From a virus, in the IMG/VR virus record IMGVR_UViG_3300046515_000173, positions 1-40,252 of that record: a stretch of DNA of 40,252 nucleotides. One strand, given 5' to 3'. Positions 13,716 to 30,459 of this stretch are shown here, piece by piece. The translations under genes and the position numbers were made by a program. Each line of letters opens with the position of its first letter. Positions within the stretch are counted from its first letter, which is position 1. Under the pieces are notes generated by a model. That model did not search any database, had not been told where the DNA came from, and was given only the letters and a program-made list of their open reading frames with translations.

Positions 13716-13852
13716 TCACCGAAATCGCGGCGATCTTCCATTGGCCCCTAAGCGAGCTGGTGGCGCTGCCCGTCGACGAACTGCTTGCATGGCGTGAACG
13801 CGCCGTCGGCATCTGGAACCGGATGAATCCGCCAGCCAAGGAAGGCACCTAG
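13356..13852 (+). CDS. E': Tail assembly chaperone E+E' (frameshift fusion, 13356-13652 joined to 13652-13852)
   Basis: Reading 13356-13652, then -1 into 13652-13852, gives about 165 residues (P2 E+E' 142). The E' part contains AAIFHWPLSELVALPVDELL and LLAWRERAVGIWNRMN, a typical GpE tail-chaperone domain. No separate start with ribosome site was found for E', supporting production by frameshift only. The E+E' stop overlaps the start of the tape measure gene (TAGTG). Confidence 0.85.
13646..13652 (+). promoter_or_regulatory. Programmed -1 ribosomal frameshift site T TTT TTT
   Basis: Seven T bases, in register GGT TTT TTT ATG of gene E. Slipping back one base continues as TTT TAT GAC GAA and stays open to the TAG at 13850-13852. 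P2 itself uses a T-rich slippery heptamer (T TTT TTG) at the same point to make gpE+E'. No obvious pseudoknot was worked out downstream. Confidence 0.85.
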
Positions 13853-16098
13853 TGAGCAACCGGCTTTCCCTGATCGTGAACTTCCTTGGCGTCGACAAGA
13901 TGTCGGGCGCGCTGCGCAACATCGTGGGCCTCGGACGTCGGGGCTCGACCTCGCTTCGCTCCCTGACCGGCGAAGCGCGTAAGCTCGACCGAGAACTGGC
14001 GGGCGTCCGGCGCGAGATTCAGGCGGGTTCGGGTAACATGACCGAGCTGATCAACCGCGAGCGGGCGCTTGAACGTTCGCTCGCGGGTGCCAACCAGCAG
14101 CTCCAGCGCCAACGCCGGCTTTTGGCCATCAATGCCGACCGAGAGGCGATGCTAGCGCGGGGCAGAGACTTACGCGCCAAGGGTGCAGAGGGCGTGATGG
14201 CGGGGGCAGCAATGTCTTTGCCGCTGATTGCCGCGACACGCCAGGCCATGACGTTCGAAAGCGCCATGGCCGACGTGCGCAAGGTCGTGAATTTCCCTTC
14301 ACCCAAGGTGTTCGCGCAGATGTCTGACGATGTCCTCGCGCTCAGCACGCGCATTCCGATGGCGGCAGAGGGTATCGCGGCGATCGTCGCCGCCGCCGGC
14401 CGAGCGAACATTCCTCGCGAGGAGCTACTGGGCTTTGCTCAAGACGCGGCCAAGATGGGCGTGGCCTTCGACATCTCTGGCGACGAAGCCGGCGGCATGA
14501 TGGCCAAATGGCGCACCGCGTTCGCGATGAATCAGAAGGGCGTGAATACCCTTTCCAATCAGATCAACGCCCTGACGAACGCCTATGGCGGCACCGCAGT
14601 GGAAGTATCCGGCATCGTCACTCGCATCGGTGCGCTGGGCAAGGTTGCCGGCGTCACTGCGCCGCAAGTTGCCGCCATGGCGCAGCTACTCAATAGCGTC
14701 GGTGTCGAGGAGGAAGTCGCGGCCACCGGCATCAAGAACATGATGCTGGCGCTTACGAAGGGGGATGCGGCAACCAAAAGCCAGGCGGCGTCGCTTGAAA
14801 GGCTAGGCCTCAGCGCTACCGGCCTTGCCGAGCGAATGCAAAAGGATGCCGGCGGGGCGATCACGGATGTTCTGACGCGCCTCAACAAAATCCCGAAAGC
14901 GCAGCAGGCAGGGATTCTGACCAATTTGTTCGGATCGGAATCGGTGGCAGCGATCGCGCCGATGCTCACCAACCTCGACAAGCTGCAAAACAACCTCGCG
15001 CTGGTGGGCGATAAGGCGCAGTACGCGGGATCGATGGAAAAGGAGTATCTCTCCGCCATCGCCACCAGCGAGGGTGCCACGGGCCTTGCGATGAACGCCT
15101 TGAAGGCACTTAACATCACGCTTGGGCAGGCCCTGCTCCCCACGGTGATGACGGCGTCGCAAAAGATCGTGTCGATCGCGAATTCCATGCGGGCATGGGC
15201 AAAACAGAACCCGCAGCTTTCGTCCGGCTTGGTCAAGCTGCTGACTGGCCTCGTTGCCTTGCGAATTGGTCTCGGCGCGGCGAAGTTTGCTTTCGGGGGG
15301 TTGCTTGGTCCCCTGGCCAAGATCATTCCCTATTTTCGGAAGGTCGAAGGCATCTCCGCCTTCGGGCGGCACCTCGGCATGTTCGGCAAGGTCGCTGTCC
15401 AGGCTGGGGGTTTGGCAGTCCGCGGCTTTGGGCTGATCAGGCTAGCTGCGATGTTCCTTGCCCGAGGCATTATGCAGGCTGGGATTATGATGATGGCGAA
15501 CCCGATCGTCCTAGTCATCACCCTGATCGTCGCCGCACTCGCTGGCGCCGCGTACCTGGTCTATACCCATTGGGACAAGATCAGCGCCGCATTCACCAGT
15601 GGTGTCGCATGGGTGAAGTCGTCGCTGCAGGCGCTGCCGGCGTGGCTCAAGACCATCGGGGCGATGATGATGCAGGGGCTCCTCATGGCCATCAACCCGA
15701 TGGCGCTGGCGTGGAAGCTTGTGCAGCTCGCGAAGAACGGCGTCACCGCGTTCAAGCAGTATTTCGGTATCAAGTCGCCTTCGCGCCTGTTCATGGCCAT
15801 GGGCGGGCATCTGACCGGGGGTCTTGAGCGCGGCATCGACAGGTCACGTCATGGCCCGGTGCGTGCGATAAGCCGCATGGCTACCGGCGTTGCAGCTGCC
15901 GGGGCGATATCGCTCACGCCTATGGCGGCCGCCGCGCGCTCGCCCGGCAAGGGATCTGCAGCCTCAGCGTCGGCGCCAATCGAGATCCATGTGCACGGCA
16001 CACCGGGGATGAACGTCCAGGATCTCGCCCGCGAGGTACGCCGCGAACTTGAGCGCCTGCAGGCCCGCAGCGCTCTCAGCAGCTATGAGGATCGCTAA
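13852..16098 (+). CDS. T: Tail tape measure protein T
   Basis: 748 residues (P2 gpT 815), determining tail length. The N-terminus has NFLGVDKMSGALRNIVGLG followed by a heptad-rich coiled coil (about 40-105). The central core has TFESAMADVRKVV, the typical phage tape-measure domain start, with AAAGRANIPREELLGFAQDAAKMG. A long hydrophobic stretch lies at about 540-570 (MMMANPIVLVITLIVAALAG). The end has YFGIKSPSRLFMAMGGHLTGGLERGI, the conserved tape-measure C-terminal motif. Start GTG 13852 overlaps the E' stop. Confidence 0.95.
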   Translation: MSNRLSLIVNFLGVDKMSGALRNIVGLGRRGSTSLRSLTGEARKLDRELAGVRREIQAGSGNMTELINRERALERSLAGANQQLQRQRRLLAINADREAMLARGRDLRAKGAEGVMAGAAMSLPLIAATRQAMTFESAMADVRKVVNFPSPKVFAQMSDDVLALSTRIPMAAEGIAAIVAAAGRANIPREELLGFAQDAAKMGVAFDISGDEAGGMMAKWRTAFAMNQKGVNTLSNQINALTNAYGGTAVEVSGIVTRIGALGKVAGVTAPQVAAMAQLLNSVGVEEEVAATGIKNMMLALTKGDAATKSQAASLERLGLSATGLAERMQKDAGGAITDVLTRLNKIPKAQQAGILTNLFGSESVAAIAPMLTNLDKLQNNLALVGDKAQYAGSMEKEYLSAIATSEGATGLAMNALKALNITLGQALLPTVMTASQKIVSIANSMRAWAKQNPQLSSGLVKLLTGLVALRIGLGAAKFAFGGLLGPLAKIIPYFRKVEGISAFGRHLGMFGKVAVQAGGLAVRGFGLIRLAAMFLARGIMQAGIMMMANPIVLVITLIVAALAGAAYLVYTHWDKISAAFTSGVAWVKSSLQALPAWLKTIGAMMMQGLLMAINPMALAWKLVQLAKNGVTAFKQYFGIKSPSRLFMAMGGHLTGGLERGIDRSRHGPVRAISRMATGVAAAGAISLTPMAAAARSPGKGSAASASAPIEIHVHGTPGMNVQDLAREVRRELERLQARSALSSYEDR

Positions 16099-17502: not shown

Positions 17503-18051
17503 TCAGCAAGCACCCGCCTGCTGTGCGCCGTAAGCCGCCTGTGCTTTCGTGTACTGGTTCCCCGCGTCGGATGACAACTGCTCGATCAGGCCCTTGCAGG
17601 AGAAGCCGGACATATCGAGGTACTGCTTTGCTGACCGAGCTGCCTGCTCATTCCAATCGACATTTAGGCTGTCCACGGCCGCCGTCGCGTCGGCCTTTTC
17701 GTAACCGTTGCCGGCATCAGACGACAGTTGGTCTATCAGACCCAAACGCGAAAAGCCCGACATGTCGAGATACTGTTGGGCCGACCTTGCCGCGTTGGCC
17801 TGCGGCCCCGTCAAGCTGCTCTCAGGCTCCTCGGCCGGCGCCGGGGCCGGATCGGCTTCAGGTTGCGCAGCATCATCCTTTTGCGCCAGCACAGGGCTAT
17901 CACTCGACGCTGCCGTCGAAGTTGATTTCCCGCTGTTCTTGTCGCCGACGATCGCCCCCAGCACCGTCAATGCGACGAGAACGCCGATAACCACCAGGCA
18001 CCCCATGCCCAGCTTCTTACCCAGTCCCGCCTTTTTCTGTTCTTCGCTCAC
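17503..18051 (-). CDS. Ltp-family membrane protein, candidate superinfection exclusion factor
   Basis: 182 residues. A basic start, one membrane segment (about 16-36), a low-complexity Ala/Pro/Glu linker (40-83) and two tandem Ltp repeats of about 47 residues at 84-130 and 134-178. Both contain AARSA-x-QYLDMSGFS, GLI-QLSSDAGN and a final aromatic. Ltp repeats are those of the TP-J34 lipoprotein that blocks DNA injection by superinfecting phages. No lipobox Cys follows the membrane segment, so it is probably anchored by that segment with repeats in the periplasm. Last gene of the repressor operon. Confidence 0.82.
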   Translation of the reverse strand: MSEEQKKAGLGKKLGMGCLVVIGVLVALTVLGAIVGDKNSGKSTSTAASSDSPVLAQKDDAAQPEADPAPAPAEEPESSLTGPQANAARSAQQYLDMSGFSRLGLIDQLSSDAGNGYEKADATAAVDSLNVDWNEQAARSAKQYLDMSGFSCKGLIEQLSSDAGNQYTKAQAAYGAQQAGAC

Positions 18052-18080
18052 TTCGTAACCCCCGTTTTATGGTCGCCCTG

Positions 18081-18530
18081 CTAGTCGTCTGGCCAAATAT
18101 CGTCTGGATAAAAATCGGGCGCATCCGAGCTGATCTGGCTTGTTATGTCGCCATCGCCGACAGCACCTTCCTCTGCCGCTTGGATCATCGCGGGAGTAAG
18201 GACTGGTGCCTCGCCGTCGAATGCCACGCGGATCCATGCTCCGAACTTTGTCTTGCGCTGCAAGAGGGCTTGCACCCGGCGACCGTCCCGGAGAACCGCG
18301 CTGATGCGGACCGCGCGAACCGAGGTGATGTAGCCCAGCTGCATCCCGCCGGCATTGTAGACGGCGACTGCGTTCTCGTCGGCCGGATTGTCGGGCTCAA
18401 GCCGCAGCTCCACCGCGTCACCCACCTCACACAACGCCAGTGCGAAGCGCCTGTTCGACCCGTCGCGGTTGTCGAACTCGATCCCTACGACCGCAAGCGA
18501 CATGGCTGGTAGTGGCGTGTCGAACGGCAT
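18081..18530 (-). CDS. HIRAN-domain protein in the lysogeny operon
   Basis: 149 residues. Residues about 10-75 fit a HIRAN domain: VVGIEFDNRDGSNRR, VELRLEPDNPADENAVAVY, then G-x-QLGYI. HIRAN domains recognise DNA ends (3' ends in HLTF) and occur alone or fused to helicases or nucleases. Here it stands alone, with an acidic C-terminus (ending DFYPDDIWPDD). The start ATG overlaps the repressor stop (TGATG); ATG 18503 (MSLAVVG) is an alternative. Co-transcription with the repressor suggests expression in the lysogen. The target is unknown. Confidence 0.75.
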   Translation of the reverse strand: MPFDTPLPAMSLAVVGIEFDNRDGSNRRFALALCEVGDAVELRLEPDNPADENAVAVYNAGGMQLGYITSVRAVRISAVLRDGRRVQALLQRKTKFGAWIRVAFDGEAPVLTPAMIQAAEEGAVGDGDITSQISSDAPDFYPDDIWPDD

Positions 18531-19213
18531 CAGCCACCGATCTTGCGAATGATGGCAACCACCTTTCCAATCGGATGCAGTTCGCCGTCATAGGCGATTT
18601 CCGATTCTACGTTGGGATTGTCCGACATGATCTTGATGCCACCGCTGGGGAGCGGCCGCAGGCGCTTTATCAAACCGAAGTTGCCATACGAGACCGCCCA
18701 TATCTGGTCGCCAAGGCCGACGAGGTTCTGCGCCGTGTCAATGATCACCACATCGTCATTCTGGATCGTCGGCGCCATCGAATCACCGATGCCGCGAGCA
18801 ATGAATATCCGGGTAGCAGGCGAGGATGAGTACAGCCGGAGCCAGTCCCTTGCGATCTTCCGGCCCTTTTCCTTAACCGGAAGGTCCAGGTAGCTTCCGC
18901 CGCCCATGCCAAAACCGAGGTCCAGTTCCATGATTTCGACTATTTCGCCATCATCGAAGTCAGGCTGAGGCGGCGGGCCATCAGGTGCACCCGTTGCGTC
19001 GCCAAGATCCTCACTATCGCCGGATAGATACTCTGGCGACACGTTCAACGCTTTCGCGATGGCATAGATATGGGCGCTATCGCGCGCTTCTCCCCGCGCA
19101 AGCTTATTGATCATCGTTGAACTGAGGCCAACCGCGCGGGCTAGCGCCGCTTGGCTCATGTCGCGTGCTTTCAAGGCCGCTACCAGGCGTTCCGGTAAAA
19201 TCACAGGCGACAC
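18530..19213 (-). CDS. CI-type lysogeny repressor (HTH + S24 peptidase)
   Basis: 227 residues. An HTH at about 8-62 (MSQAALARAVGLSSTMINKLARG) is joined by a Pro/Asp-rich linker to an S24 LexA/CI-like domain. The catalytic Ser is in GIGDSMAPTI (Ser145) and the general-base Lys in GLIKRLRPL (Lys183). It should self-cleave when RecA is activated, making the prophage SOS-inducible, unlike P2's non-inducible C. The GTG at 19213 has no clear ribosome site and lies four bases from operator 19217-19228. Confidence 0.92.
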   Translation of the reverse strand: MSPVILPERLVAALKARDMSQAALARAVGLSSTMINKLARGEARDSAHIYAIAKALNVSPEYLSGDSEDLGDATGAPDGPPPQPDFDDGEIVEIMELDLGFGMGGGSYLDLPVKEKGRKIARDWLRLYSSSPATRIFIARGIGDSMAPTIQNDDVVIIDTAQNLVGLGDQIWAVSYGNFGLIKRLRPLPSGGIKIMSDNPNVESEIAYDGELHPIGKVVAIIRKIGG

Positions 19214-19216
19214 CTA

Positions 19217-19228
19217 CAACCACGGTTG
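19217..19228. promoter_or_regulatory. Repressor operator, repressor-proximal
   Basis: CAACCACGGTTG is an inverted repeat (CAACC-N2-GGTTG). Read on the minus strand with flanks it is TGCAACCGTGGTTGTA, matching the second site at 19285-19296 at nearly every position. The spacing of 68 bases between the two starts brackets the divergent promoters. Confidence 0.75.
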
Positions 19229-19253
19229 CAAGCGCGCGCTGTGAATTTGGTTG

Positions 19254-19282
19254 TTGACGGCAACTTAAGTGTACGCCATAGC
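19254..19282 (+). promoter_or_regulatory. Putative rightward early promoter
   Basis: A -35 match TTGACG at 19254-19259 and, 17 bases on, CATAGC at 19277-19282 as a weak -10. Initiation would fall near 19289-19290, on the presumed ATG of the Cro-like gene, implying a leaderless message. The downstream operator (19285-19296) would overlap the start point, so repressor binding should block it. Confidence 0.45.
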
Positions 19283-19284
19283 TG

Positions 19285-19296
19285 CAACCATGGTTG
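19285..19296. promoter_or_regulatory. Repressor operator, Cro-proximal
   Basis: CAACCATGGTTG is a perfect palindrome with flanks TG and AA, the same consensus TGCAACC-R-TGGTTG-W-A as the site at 19217-19228. The central ATG is also a possible start codon of the Cro-like gene. Confidence 0.75.
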
Positions 19297-19634
19297 AAGA
19301 CATGACGCCTTATGAAGCCCTGATGGCAGCGGTCGAGATAGCAGGCTCGCAGTCCGCGCTCGCGCGGATCGCCAACGTTTCGTCCACGGCCGTGTGGAAA
19401 TGGGTGCAAAGCTCAAAGCGAGTTCCGCCGCAATTTGTGATACTTGTCGAGGCCGGAACCGGCATCTCTCGTCATGTTCTTCGCCCCGATATCTACCCTG
19501 CCGAAATGCCCGAGGCGCCCTCTCGCTGGTCCGGCGTCGATCATCGCGCCGGTGTCCGCAGCGCCGGGGTAGATGCCCGCTCACGCCGCGTCTCTTGCAA
19601 TAGTGCAACGGGAATGAAGGGCGCCTCATTGTGA
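19290..19634 (+). CDS. Cro/YdaS-like regulator
   Basis: About 114 residues from ATG 19290 (ATG 19302 is four codons later; 19269 would precede the likely start of transcription). AVEIAGSQSALARIANVSSTAVWKWV, then RVPPQFVILVEAGTGISRHVLRPDIYP, is the YdaS/Cro-like pattern: an HTH followed by the conserved GISRH-LRPDIYP. It is the first gene of the early operon opposite CI and should turn down the repressor operon. The last 40 residues are basic and not conserved. Its TGA overlaps the GTG of the next gene. Confidence 0.85.
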   Translation: MVEDMTPYEALMAAVEIAGSQSALARIANVSSTAVWKWVQSSKRVPPQFVILVEAGTGISRHVLRPDIYPAEMPEAPSRWSGVDHRAGVRSAGVDARSRRVSCNSATGMKGASL

Positions 19635-20089
19635 CGAAGCGCCGCGAACCCCTCACATATCAAGCCACGCTCACCGAAATCGCCGCGCGGATCGGATGGG
19701 ATCGCTGCGCCGCCATCTGCGGCGTCACCGAGCGCGCGGTGCGTTACTGGTCTGATCCCGACTGTGAGACCGAAATCCGCCTGATCGACGCCGAGCGGCT
19801 CGATCGCGCCTTCATGGAGTACGGCGGCGATCATGCACCGTTCCATCGCCTCCATGGCCTGCGCATTGATTTGGCCATCCGCGAAGCACGCGACCAATCG
19901 CTGGCAGACCTGGCTGGCAAAGCGGCCAAGGAAACGGGGGAGGCGGTCGCCGCGCTCATCACCGCCAGCGGCTCACGCGACCCTCGCGCCCGGCGTCGTG
20001 CCCGGCAGGAAGTTCACGAAGCCATCGAAAGCCTGACCGACGGTCTGGCCACGCTGGACCAGCAGGAAGCGGAGGATCGACGAGAATGA
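19631..20089 (+). CDS. CII-like phage regulatory protein (CP76 family)
   Basis: 152 residues. LTEIAARIGWDRCAAICGVTERAVRYWSDPD is an HTH like that of the CII/CP76 family of P2-like and D3-like phages. A helical C-terminal part (AREARDQSLADLAGKAAKETG) probably mediates oligomerisation. Role inferred: transcription regulation in the lysis-lysogeny decision or early gene control. GTG 19631 overlaps the Cro stop (GTGA), and the end overlaps the Ogr start (ATGA). Confidence 0.8.
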   Translation: MTKRREPLTYQATLTEIAARIGWDRCAAICGVTERAVRYWSDPDCETEIRLIDAERLDRAFMEYGGDHAPFHRLHGLRIDLAIREARDQSLADLAGKAAKETGEAVAALITASGSRDPRARRRARQEVHEAIESLTDGLATLDQQEAEDRRE

Positions 20090-27680: not shown

Positions 27681-27904
27681 CGCTTGAACACCTGACCGCC
27701 GGAAGCTTAGTCGAACTCGCGCGCTCGGCACGCATGGTCACGATCACTTCAGAGGACCGCATCGAGTTCGGCCGTGCCCTCGTTCTGCAAGGCTACGCAC
27801 CCGCGCGTGCCGCTCGCATGGCGGCAGGGGAAATCCTCGACAACGATGGTGCCCTGCAGATGCTCGCCCGCCACCGCCTTCGCTTCAGCGCGGGGCCATA
27901 CTGA
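27677..27904 (+). CDS. Hypothetical protein, 75 residues
   Basis: Helical and slightly basic: FGRALVLQGYAPARAARMAAGEIL could be an HTH-like helical pair, but it has no clear family. Overlaps on both sides (ATGA with the previous gene and TGATG with the next) place it firmly in the operon just before the DNA methyltransferase group. Confidence 0.55.
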   Translation: MTLEHLTAGSLVELARSARMVTITSEDRIEFGRALVLQGYAPARAARMAAGEILDNDGALQMLARHRLRFSAGPY

Positions 27905-28611
27905 TGGGCCGCGTTCTGATTGCGTGCGAGCGCTCCGGCGTCGTTCGACGCGCCTTCATAGCCGCCGGCCACGATGCCTGGTCGTGCGACCTCGAGCCCG
28001 CAGACGACGGCAGCAATCGTCACATCCGAGGCGACGTGCGCGACCATCTCGACGACGGGTGGGACCTGCTCGCCGTCATGCATCCCCCGTGCCCGCTGCT
28101 GTGCAATTCCGGCGTGCGATGGCTCTACCTCGACGGCCGACAGGAGAACGGGCCCGATCCGCAGCGCTGGGCCGAAATGGAGGAGGCGGCGGCTTTCTAC
28201 CGCACACTTCGCAACGCGAAGCAGATCAAACGCCGAGCGATCGAAAACCCGATCATGCACAAGCACGCCATCCGCCTCACGCAGCGCGGGCGAGTGCAGT
28301 TCATCCAGCCTTGGTGGTTCGGCGATCCGTTCTTCAAGGCCACCGGGCTGGAACTGATCAGCCTACCGCTGCTGCGCGCCACCGATCGGCTGACGCCGCC
28401 AAAGCCCGGCAGCGCGGAGCACAAGGCATGGAGCGCCGTCCACCGCTATTCTGGCTGGGGCAAGCACGCCGCCGATCGCGCCCGCGCGCGCAGTCAGACC
28501 TTTCCTGGCCCTGCCCTCGCTATGGCCTCCCAATGGGGCGCGCTTCTTCCCGGTCACGTCGAGCCAGAACAGTTGAACCTCTTTCCCGCGCAGGAGGCGC
28601 TCGCCGCATGA
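27904..28611 (+). CDS. DNA cytosine-C5 methyltransferase-like protein
   Basis: 235 residues. The nucleotide-binding start VLIACERSGVVRRAFIAAGHDAWSCD resembles motif I. PPCP at residues 61-64 supplies the motif IV nucleophile Cys63, and ENP at 114-116 corresponds to motif VI. The rest lacks the usual motif IX-X region, and the length is below a full C5 methyltransferase (over 300). It is a recurrent phage family annotated as DNA cytosine methyltransferase-like; activity is not assured. It is the first of three modification genes in a row. Confidence 0.75.
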   Translation: MGRVLIACERSGVVRRAFIAAGHDAWSCDLEPADDGSNRHIRGDVRDHLDDGWDLLAVMHPPCPLLCNSGVRWLYLDGRQENGPDPQRWAEMEEAAAFYRTLRNAKQIKRRAIENPIMHKHAIRLTQRGRVQFIQPWWFGDPFFKATGLELISLPLLRATDRLTPPKPGSAEHKAWSAVHRYSGWGKHAADRARARSQTFPGPALAMASQWGALLPGHVEPEQLNLFPAQEALAA

Positions 28612-29462
28612 CCACACCAACACGTCCAATCCTCCGCTGGCATGGCGGAAAGTGGCTGCTCGCTCCATGGATCATCGCACAATTCCCGGCCCACCGCATT
28701 TATGTCGAACCCTTCGGTGGGGCGTGGTCTGTTGGCTTTCGCAAGCCTCGCGCAACTGCCGAGGTATGGAATGACCTTGACGGTGAGCTGGTCAACCTAT
28801 TTGCCGTGATGCGAGATACGGCAGGAGCGTCGCTTCTCATCGATCATTTGCGCCTGACCCCCTTCGCGCGCGATGAATTCCATGCGGCCTATGAAGCCTC
28901 GAATTGCCCCGTTGAACGCGCACGCCGACTGATCGTCCGCGCATTCATGGGTCACGGCAGCGACGGCGCATCGGGCATGTACCGGACCGGGTTTCGCGCA
29001 AACTCCAACAGGTCTGGATCGCCGCCTGCAATGGACTGGACGAACCTGCCCGACAGCCTCAAACAAGCGGTGGAACGGCTGCGCGGCGTCGTTATCGAGA
29101 ACCGGCCTGCGCTGCAGGTGATGACAACCCACGACGGTCCAGCGACACTTCACTACGTCGACCCCCCCTATCTTCATGAGACGCGGTCCCGCGCCAACCG
29201 GCGGACGGATAATGGTGGCGTCTATCGCCACGAGTTGACCGACCAGGACCACGCCGAACTGCTTCAAGCTCTCTGCAGTTTACGAGGTATGGTGGTGCTC
29301 TCGGGATACCCGAGCCAGATCTACGATGACGCGTTGCGAGGTTGGACCCGCATCGACCGGGCGGCGATGGCCGATGGCGCTCTCCCTCGCACCGAATGCC
29401 TTTGGCTCAACCCTGCTTGCGCGGTCCGGCGCCCAGCTCCTGATCTGTTAGAAACCGCATGA
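28608..29462 (+). CDS. DNA adenine-N6 methyltransferase (Dam/D12 class)
   Basis: 284 residues. LRWHGGKWLLAPWI at 9-22 is the motif I-like opening of the D12 class (usual K-x-AGGK), EPFGG at 34-38 fits the SAM pocket, and DPPY at 185-188 is the catalytic motif IV. The motif X to IV order makes it alpha-class. The target sequence is unknown. It probably protects phage DNA from restriction or marks replication. Overlaps neighbours on both sides (ATGA). Confidence 0.88.
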   Translation: MTTPTRPILRWHGGKWLLAPWIIAQFPAHRIYVEPFGGAWSVGFRKPRATAEVWNDLDGELVNLFAVMRDTAGASLLIDHLRLTPFARDEFHAAYEASNCPVERARRLIVRAFMGHGSDGASGMYRTGFRANSNRSGSPPAMDWTNLPDSLKQAVERLRGVVIENRPALQVMTTHDGPATLHYVDPPYLHETRSRANRRTDNGGVYRHELTDQDHAELLQALCSLRGMVVLSGYPSQIYDDALRGWTRIDRAAMADGALPRTECLWLNPACAVRRPAPDLLETA

Positions 29463-29644
29463 CACGCACCGCACAAACCCGCCGGTTCGACCGATCCTGC
29501 ACGATCACGATTCGCTGGTCGGAAGAGGATGCCGTCTGGCTCGCCTCGTGCCCCGAACTGGCCCCCTGCACAGCCCACGGCCCGACGGTCCTGAGCGCTT
29601 TGCGCATGCTCGACGCGATGATCGACCTCATGGAGGACGAATGA
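29459..29644 (+). CDS. Orphan HicB-like antitoxin-fold protein
   Basis: 61 residues. TITIRWSEEDAVWLASCPELAPCTAHGPTVLSALRML matches the partly degraded RNase H fold of HicB antitoxins (SEEDG-w-A--PEL-g--a-G-T--EA). There is no HTH or RHH C-terminal domain and no HicA toxin beside it. It may be an antitoxin mimic or a regulator. Overlaps both neighbours by four bases. Confidence 0.75.
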   Translation: MTRTAQTRRFDRSCTITIRWSEEDAVWLASCPELAPCTAHGPTVLSALRMLDAMIDLMEDE

Positions 29645-30459
29645 TGCAGTTGCTCTGCACAAAATGCGCCGGCACCGGCTACAAGGATTTCGCGGGCTTT
29701 CGCATGGATCTCTGCGATTGCCGCGCCGCGCAGTCCGCGACGATCGGCTACGACCCCGGCGCGCCCGGAGGCGACGTCGGCGTCGTCAAGATCGGCCCCC
29801 ACACCCTCTATCATGCCGATGCATACCATCTGCGTCCCAAGCTGGGCTTCTTCGACGCCGAGTTCATGGACCCGCCGTATCGCTTCGATAATCGGGGCGG
29901 CGGCGCGTTCCGCAAGAGCCGCACCGGCGCGGACATGATCGTCGCAGAAGAGCTGGACCAGGGCTTCGACATGTCGATCGTCAATCCGCTGCGCGCCGGC
30001 GCAGTCGTGGTTTTCTGCCACAATGACCAGCTCCCCCAGCTGCTCGACCATGTCGGCCGGCGCTACCAGCGCTTCTGCCTGCTGGGCTGGATCAAGAAGA
30101 ACCCCAGTCCCATGCGCAACAAGCACTACCTCGCCGACGTCGAGCCCTTCGTCCACGCCTGGAACCACGGCTACCACCCCATCGGCGAGCACCACGACAT
30201 GCACCGCTGGATCGTCGCCGGGACAATGCCGGCCAAGGTCTTCGGCCACCCGACCGTGAAGCCCCTCGACGTCATGGACAAGATCATGCGCAACCTGTCC
30301 GGCCGCACGATCATAGACCCGTTCATGGGCACCGGCAGCACCGGGGTCGCCGCGCTCCGGCGGGGCAAGGTGTTCACCGGCATCGAAAAGAACCCGAAGC
30401 ACTTTGCCACGGCAGTCGAGCGAATCACCGCCGCGTGGGCGCAGCAGGAGGCCGCGTGA
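29641..30459 (+). CDS. DNA methyltransferase, beta-class (N4/N6)
   Basis: 272 residues. A short CTKCAGTGYKDF...CDC region (6-27) looks like a zinc-binding addition. DPPY at 77-80 (motif IV) precedes IIDPFMGTGSTGVAALRRG (about 227-245, the SAM-binding motif I), the beta-class order of N4-cytosine or N6-adenine enzymes. HPTVKPLDVM also is typical of phage and cell-cycle type methyltransferases (motif X). ATG 29641 overlaps the HicB-like stop; ATG 29644 is equivalent. The next gene starts in overlap (GTGA). Confidence 0.88.
   Translation: MMQLLCTKCAGTGYKDFAGFRMDLCDCRAAQSATIGYDPGAPGGDVGVVKIGPHTLYHADAYHLRPKLGFFDAEFMDPPYRFDNRGGGAFRKSRTGADMIVAEELDQGFDMSIVNPLRAGAVVVFCHNDQLPQLLDHVGRRYQRFCLLGWIKKNPSPMRNKHYLADVEPFVHAWNHGYHPIGEHHDMHRWIVAGTMPAKVFGHPTVKPLDVMDKIMRNLSGRTIIDPFMGTGSTGVAALRRGKVFTGIEKNPKHFATAVERITAAWAQQEAA

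Follow-up and report, generated by a model that had tools for sequence, protein, structure and literature searches.

We analysed a 40,252-base IMG/VR virus record, the whole of which is called the window below. It belongs to a P2-like temperate phage, in which genes for a baseplate, a sheath, gpD, a primase and an integrase were recognised. The nearest relatives of this phage are found in sphingomonads. Two adjoining DNA methyltransferase-like genes (27774-29462 and 29548-30459) are located directly ahead of the integrase gene.

Three genes on the minus strand comprise the operon studied here. The first encodes a CI-type repressor with HTH_3 and S24 peptidase domains (18530..19213), assigned by Pfam and PHROG matches. 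The second encodes a stand-alone HIRAN protein of 149 amino acids (18081..18530), assigned from PF08797, an AF2 model and conservation of its tail, and the third encodes an Ltp-like protein with two repeats (17503..18051), assigned from PF07553, comparison of its model with 4eqq, and alignment. The stop codon of CI and the start codon of HIRAN share one base (TGATG), the gap between HIRAN and Ltp is 29 bp, and the operon is convergent with the tail gene gpD. On the plus strand, a Cro-like regulator of the YdaS/Cro fold (19269..19634; PF15943, E 5e-17; phrog_35) diverges from cI and is followed by a CII-like activator (19631..20089; phrog_38866 and phrog_101). The layout given in the earlier note, a repressor with an overlapping HIRAN gene and a closely spaced two-repeat Ltp gene, was thus confirmed. 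The lysogeny operon is real, and CI, HIRAN and Ltp are expected to be made in the lysogen. A sigma-70 promoter scan around the operon found no site, such a scan being uninformative for the host of this phage.

In Pfam, CI matched HTH_3 (E 6e-9) and Peptidase_S24 (E 1e-11). Going by its homologues, the true start is likely the GTG at 19204. CI shows the hallmarks of an S24 phage repressor, an HTH together with an S24 domain whose Ser-Lys dyad (Ser145/Lys183 in ORF numbering) is in place, and both dyad residues are invariant in the 42 HIRAN-linked relatives. Only two matches to CAACCNNGGTTG occur in the window, both at the cI-cro intergenic region and of the form CAACC(A)(C/T)GGTTG. These sites, CAACCACGGTTG (19217..19228) and CAACCATGGTTG (19285..19296), are putative CI/Cro operators.

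The scissile bond of LexA and lambda CI is Ala-Gly. In the window CI, Met-Gly stands instead at the likely scissile site, as placed by alignment only. Nearly the whole CI family has Met/Leu-Gly at this alignment-assigned site, with the dyad intact. We considered Met/Leu-Gly as a HIRAN-specific trait and ruled this out, as it is no rarer among CI proteins that lack HIRAN. The site bears on one reading of HIRAN, as an induction promoter, that is, an antirepressor-like DNA-damage sensor in the position of the ImmA-like metalloproteinase of TP-J34. The same place in the TP-J34 operon (CI, putative metalloproteinase, ltp; PMC3952083) speaks for it, as does the replacement of Ala-Gly, with which unaided cleavage of CI is possibly poor. 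It is nevertheless unlikely, given that HIRAN has no protease fold, that the S24 catalytic dyad is intact, and that the replacement is just as frequent where HIRAN is absent.

The HIRAN gene matched PF08797 (E 2.4e-9) and phrog_27141 (E 8e-30). Its AF2 model (pLDDT 85.7) matched the HIRAN domain of HLTF (4s0n/4xzf) in Foldseek with E ~1e-6, and the OB-like fold was confirmed by the profile matches and the model together. R71, N91, Y93, D94, H110 and K113 are residues of the pocket with which HLTF holds the 3'-OH DNA end. The equivalents of N91 and D94 of HLTF are kept in all 29 HIRAN sequences compared; in the same set, H110 is replaced by Tyr, K113 mostly by Ala, and Y93 is variable. In HLTF, the mutation R71E abolishes 3'-OH end binding (PMC11366124). 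The R71-equivalent position, aligned by the VVG motif, varies among the HIRAN relatives; the window protein has Glu there. The pocket is preserved only in part, and recognition of incoming DNA ends, as proposed in the earlier note, is at most a candidate function of this HIRAN. An acidic C-terminal tail, F-Y-P-D-x-x-W-x-D, is conserved (residues 137-149); it is predicted to be disordered, Phe140 and Trp146 are invariant, and it is likely a partner-binding motif.

The Ltp gene matched PF07553 twice (E 1.8e-27) and phrog_15667/4980, which are annotated 'superinfection exclusion'. The protein has a TM anchor (residues ~17-34), a disordered linker (35-80) and two repeats of three helices each (~residues 83-128 and 133-178). 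Its model superposed on the crystal structure of TP-J34 Ltp (4eqq) in Foldseek with TMt 0.86-0.88 and rmsd 1.2-1.3 Å. Cys152 and Cys182 in the repeat region are invariant across 13 aligned relatives. By inspection, no lipobox pattern was found in the window Ltp, which has an N-terminal TM helix instead; therefore, we prefer 'Ltp-like membrane-anchored protein' to lipoprotein. Exclusion proteins with a TM-helix anchor are known, and for this reason the name 'Ltp-like' was retained. The earlier note's assignment of this protein to Ltp was supported, in that its structure is homologous to that of a protein with a proven role in superinfection exclusion.

Published work (PMC3952083) shows Ltp repeats interacting with the tape measure protein (TMP) of a superinfecting phage. 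By analogy with TP-J34, the TMP (13852..16098, plus strand in the window) is the expected target of the window Ltp. The membrane-anchored Ltp would display its repeats in the periplasm and would stop DNA injection by phages whose TMP they recognise, and close relatives of the window phage would be among them. On the analogy with TP-J34, we regard this as probable. The TMPs of the window phage and its sister phage are 98% identical and their Ltp repeats nearly identical; that the repeats were kept together with TMP fits a TMP target and is no proof of it. Co-divergence of Ltp and TMP across phages was not significant (0.21, p 0.16, n = 10). Relatives of Ltp are also located in the late head-tail block, outside the lysogeny operon, in Psychrobacter phage Psymv2 and Acinetobacter phage AbIPP1 (L014 and L015).

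To compare gene order, viral contigs and genomes were scanned for HIRAN, giving 47 unique loci in 31 clusters at 80% identity. In the viral-contig scan, the full-length HIRAN query gave no match, whereas the 100-residue core and alignment queries did. CI was located upstream of HIRAN on the same strand at all 46 loci with DNA there, and was directly adjacent in 38. The order thus recurs without exception and is not due to chance. No description of a CI-HIRAN linkage was found in the published literature (open-licence papers), an absence that is not proof. PF08797 was found in 60 of 398 sphingomonad genomes, and in these the linkage to CI became looser with distance from the window-type HIRAN. 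Among the 30 best CI relatives in sphingomonad genomes, five had HIRAN and 25 had none; therefore, HIRAN is not an obligatory partner of CI.

The earlier note had combined HIRAN and Ltp in a single two-layer superinfection-exclusion module, to be looked for in other prophages. The two genes are adjacent in the operon here and at six further loci, and Ltp is of a proven exclusion family. The search for the pair nevertheless found Ltp downstream of HIRAN at only 7/47 loci (6/31 clusters), so that most HIRAN genes stand without it. Nearly identical CI-HIRAN cassettes exist with Ltp (L068) and without it (L063/L065). Ltp in turn was rare, with 4 of the 398 genomes of Sphingomonadales carrying it, and occurs without HIRAN at L004, L181 and L006-L015. 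On the HIRAN tree, the presence of Ltp required 6 changes compared with 6.7 after shuffling (121-148 of 500 shuffles as low), which is random. We rejected HIRAN-Ltp as a conserved pair on these counts.

The slot behind HIRAN was occupied elsewhere by a HipA-like kinase with DUF3037, PDC-M41A, a Gp49/HigB-like toxin, DUF4747, DUF2939, an OB-fold protein or membrane-anchored unknowns. Among these are candidates for defence in PADLOC: PDC-M66A/B (the HipA-like kinase and DUF3037; L067:6985-8690, beside Ltp) and PDC-M41A (L035:5523-6500). A TM-like stretch was observed in 19 of 32 listed slot proteins. Proteins whose genes follow CI or HIRAN appear to be modular, with a common membrane anchor (an Ltp-like TM, or a zinc ribbon and TM) and a swappable C-terminal domain, which is Ltp repeats, a tRNA_anti-like OB fold or an unassigned domain (L072:6493-7017, L005:4815-5510, L057:2306-3028, L045 and L181:2920-3618).

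These occupants bear on a further reading, in which HIRAN serves lysogenic conversion or defence independently of CI. Its place behind cI would then simply ensure expression in the lysogen, and its link to the S24 domain would be a physical one. It would act, for example, on the ends or replication intermediates of incoming phage DNA. Besides the PADLOC candidates in the slot, a match of the window HIRAN to the HIRAN part of PADLOC PDC-M03B (E 3e-8) agrees with this, as do the scarcity of HIRAN among CI relatives and the presence of other single genes directly behind cI in these relatives. Accessory genes of cI operons often exclude phages (rexAB, hex and the 933W kinase; PMC3564112). On the other side, HIRAN is nearly always coupled directly to cI, outside the variable slot, and the trees described below argue for a tie to CI.

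HIRAN relatives outside phages and in lytic phages were also inspected. A relative on the Sphingobium plasmid pTK4 (L199) adjoins genes annotated as SOS response-associated peptidase-type, and the relatives at L135 and L155 (cluster 11, identified by eye) have neighbours of this type. These neighbours are a weak hint of a role in DNA damage. In the lytic Bradleyvirinae phages, HIRAN genes lie among nucleotide-metabolism genes, in accordance with a function in replication or repair during lytic growth. For the window HIRAN this role is very improbable; the gene is on the strand opposite to the replication genes and coupled to cI, and its divergence was uncorrelated with that of the primase (0.08). 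As the neighbours were mixed, the Bradleyvirinae and plasmid HIRANs were set aside as a guide to function.

Natural exchange between phages separated the parts of the operon. In blastn, positions 17836..19307 did not align with the sister phage (the L005/L070 contig), and the flanks were 91-96% identical. This region covers the N-terminus of Ltp, HIRAN, CI, the putative operators and the start of cro. The CI of the sister phage is 37% identical to that of the window. The alignment indicates that one block, comprising the operators, CI, HIRAN and the anchor of Ltp, was swapped, and that the Ltp repeats stayed put with the unchanged tail genes. The breakpoint lies inside Ltp and splits HIRAN from the repeats, against what a single two-layer module predicts. 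A second comparison gave a block of 75% identity common to the window and L076 (18179..18956; blastn), consisting of HIRAN and the C-terminal domain of CI; the N-terminal part of CI and the Ltp position were outside it. Both patterns therefore place HIRAN within the immunity block and the working part of Ltp outside it.

The same division was found in the distances among 42 phages. HIRAN distance correlated with that of the C-terminal (S24) domain of CI, with rho 0.51 and a Mantel p of 5e-4. The correlation was 0.47 given the CI N-domain, and that of HIRAN with the N-domain was 0.04 given the S24 domain. HIRAN was uncorrelated with Cro (-0.04), CII (0.06), primase (0.08) and TMP (0.01); the value for Ltp was 0.18, and that for gpD was weak (0.16). 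The presence of HIRAN required 9 changes on the CI S24-domain tree (mean of 17.9 after shuffling, with 0/500 shuffles as low) and 16 on the N-domain tree (mean of 18.1, with 111/500 as low), for HIRAN-positive and HIRAN-negative CI sets that came partly from different databases. HIRAN is thus co-inherited with the S24 domain. Physical linkage to this neighbouring domain alone could explain the co-inheritance; Ltp, adjacent just as HIRAN is, does not stay. The clustering of HIRAN on the CI C-domain tree, set beside the random placement of Ltp on the HIRAN tree, counts against HIRAN as an independent gene. It also leaves the single two-layer module, the claim with which this analysis began, distinctly improbable.

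The operon consists of CI, a translationally overlapping HIRAN gene and then a slot for interchangeable genes, here Ltp. It is also carried by a Novosphingobium, strain HII-3 (locus L043). HIRAN and Ltp recur independently of each other, and therefore look like two separate lysogeny functions. Our main reading, to which we give a probability of roughly 0.45, is that this lysogeny operon carries two accessory genes with separate functions rather than one two-layer system. As to what HIRAN does, we tentatively favour, by analogy with 434 Hex, an accessory that acts with CI in the lysogen. It would bind damaged or single-stranded DNA, the CI S24 domain, or both, and would thereby tune the RecA-stimulated inactivation of CI, stabilising the prophage or gating its induction. 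The partial preservation of the HIRAN pocket, the lack of HIRAN beside most CI relatives and the possibility of plain linkage to the S24 domain count against this role. The independent gene with an exclusion function is rated nearly equal in likelihood to this modulation of CI. More doubtful is a form in which HIRAN is a sensor of DNA ends or single-stranded DNA coupled to the S24 domain, serving as a second induction gate besides RecA next to an interchangeable injection blocker.

What the window adds to familiar kinds of gene is a HIRAN-fold accessory in a cI operon and, in a P2-like phage of a Gram-negative host, an Ltp with a TM anchor. If HIRAN modulates CI, a widespread orphan bacterial domain would gain a function, and the controls already known for prophage induction would be joined by a DNA-end sensor. 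The exchange of CI-HIRAN between nearly identical phages makes this modulation directly testable. With this Ltp, an exclusion family of Gram-positive hosts is extended to the P2-like phages of sphingomonads. New exclusion genes may be sought in the slot that follows HIRAN.

The closest precedent in gene arrangement is 434 Hex (PMC3564112). Its gene overlaps cI and is expressed from PRM, and its product both excludes P22 and prevents cleavage of the repressor mediated by RecA. In both phages, a small ORF overlaps the end of cI on the repressor transcript, predicted here from the TGATG overlap, and the repressor is of the RecA-cleavable S24 type (PMC3564112). The window protein differs in having a HIRAN fold, and the likeness drawn here is one of gene arrangement. 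Lambda rexAB and similar genes of cI operons likewise have exclusion functions co-transcribed with cI in the lysogen, from unrelated proteins. The third place of Ltp is familiar because the lysogeny operon of TP-J34 runs CI, putative metalloproteinase, ltp (PMC3952083), with ltp likewise behind CI and one small gene, and the repeats superpose on 4eqq. The middle gene is HIRAN in the window and a putative metalloproteinase in TP-J34; the window Ltp differs further in its TM anchor in place of a lipobox, its Gram-negative host and its two conserved Cys residues. Sensing of phage DNA ends by a bacterial HIRAN was published earlier as speculation for the HipL/HipN kinases (PMC8262856). There, HIRAN occurs with a HipS-like fusion and Hip kinases, whereas the window HIRAN stands alone and is tied to an S24 repressor. 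Compared with the HIRAN domains of HLTF/Rad5, the window protein has the same fold and the invariant N91 and D94 equivalents, but H110, K113 and Y93 are replaced and the R71 position is variable. It also has no helicase partner and carries an additional conserved acidic C-terminal tail.
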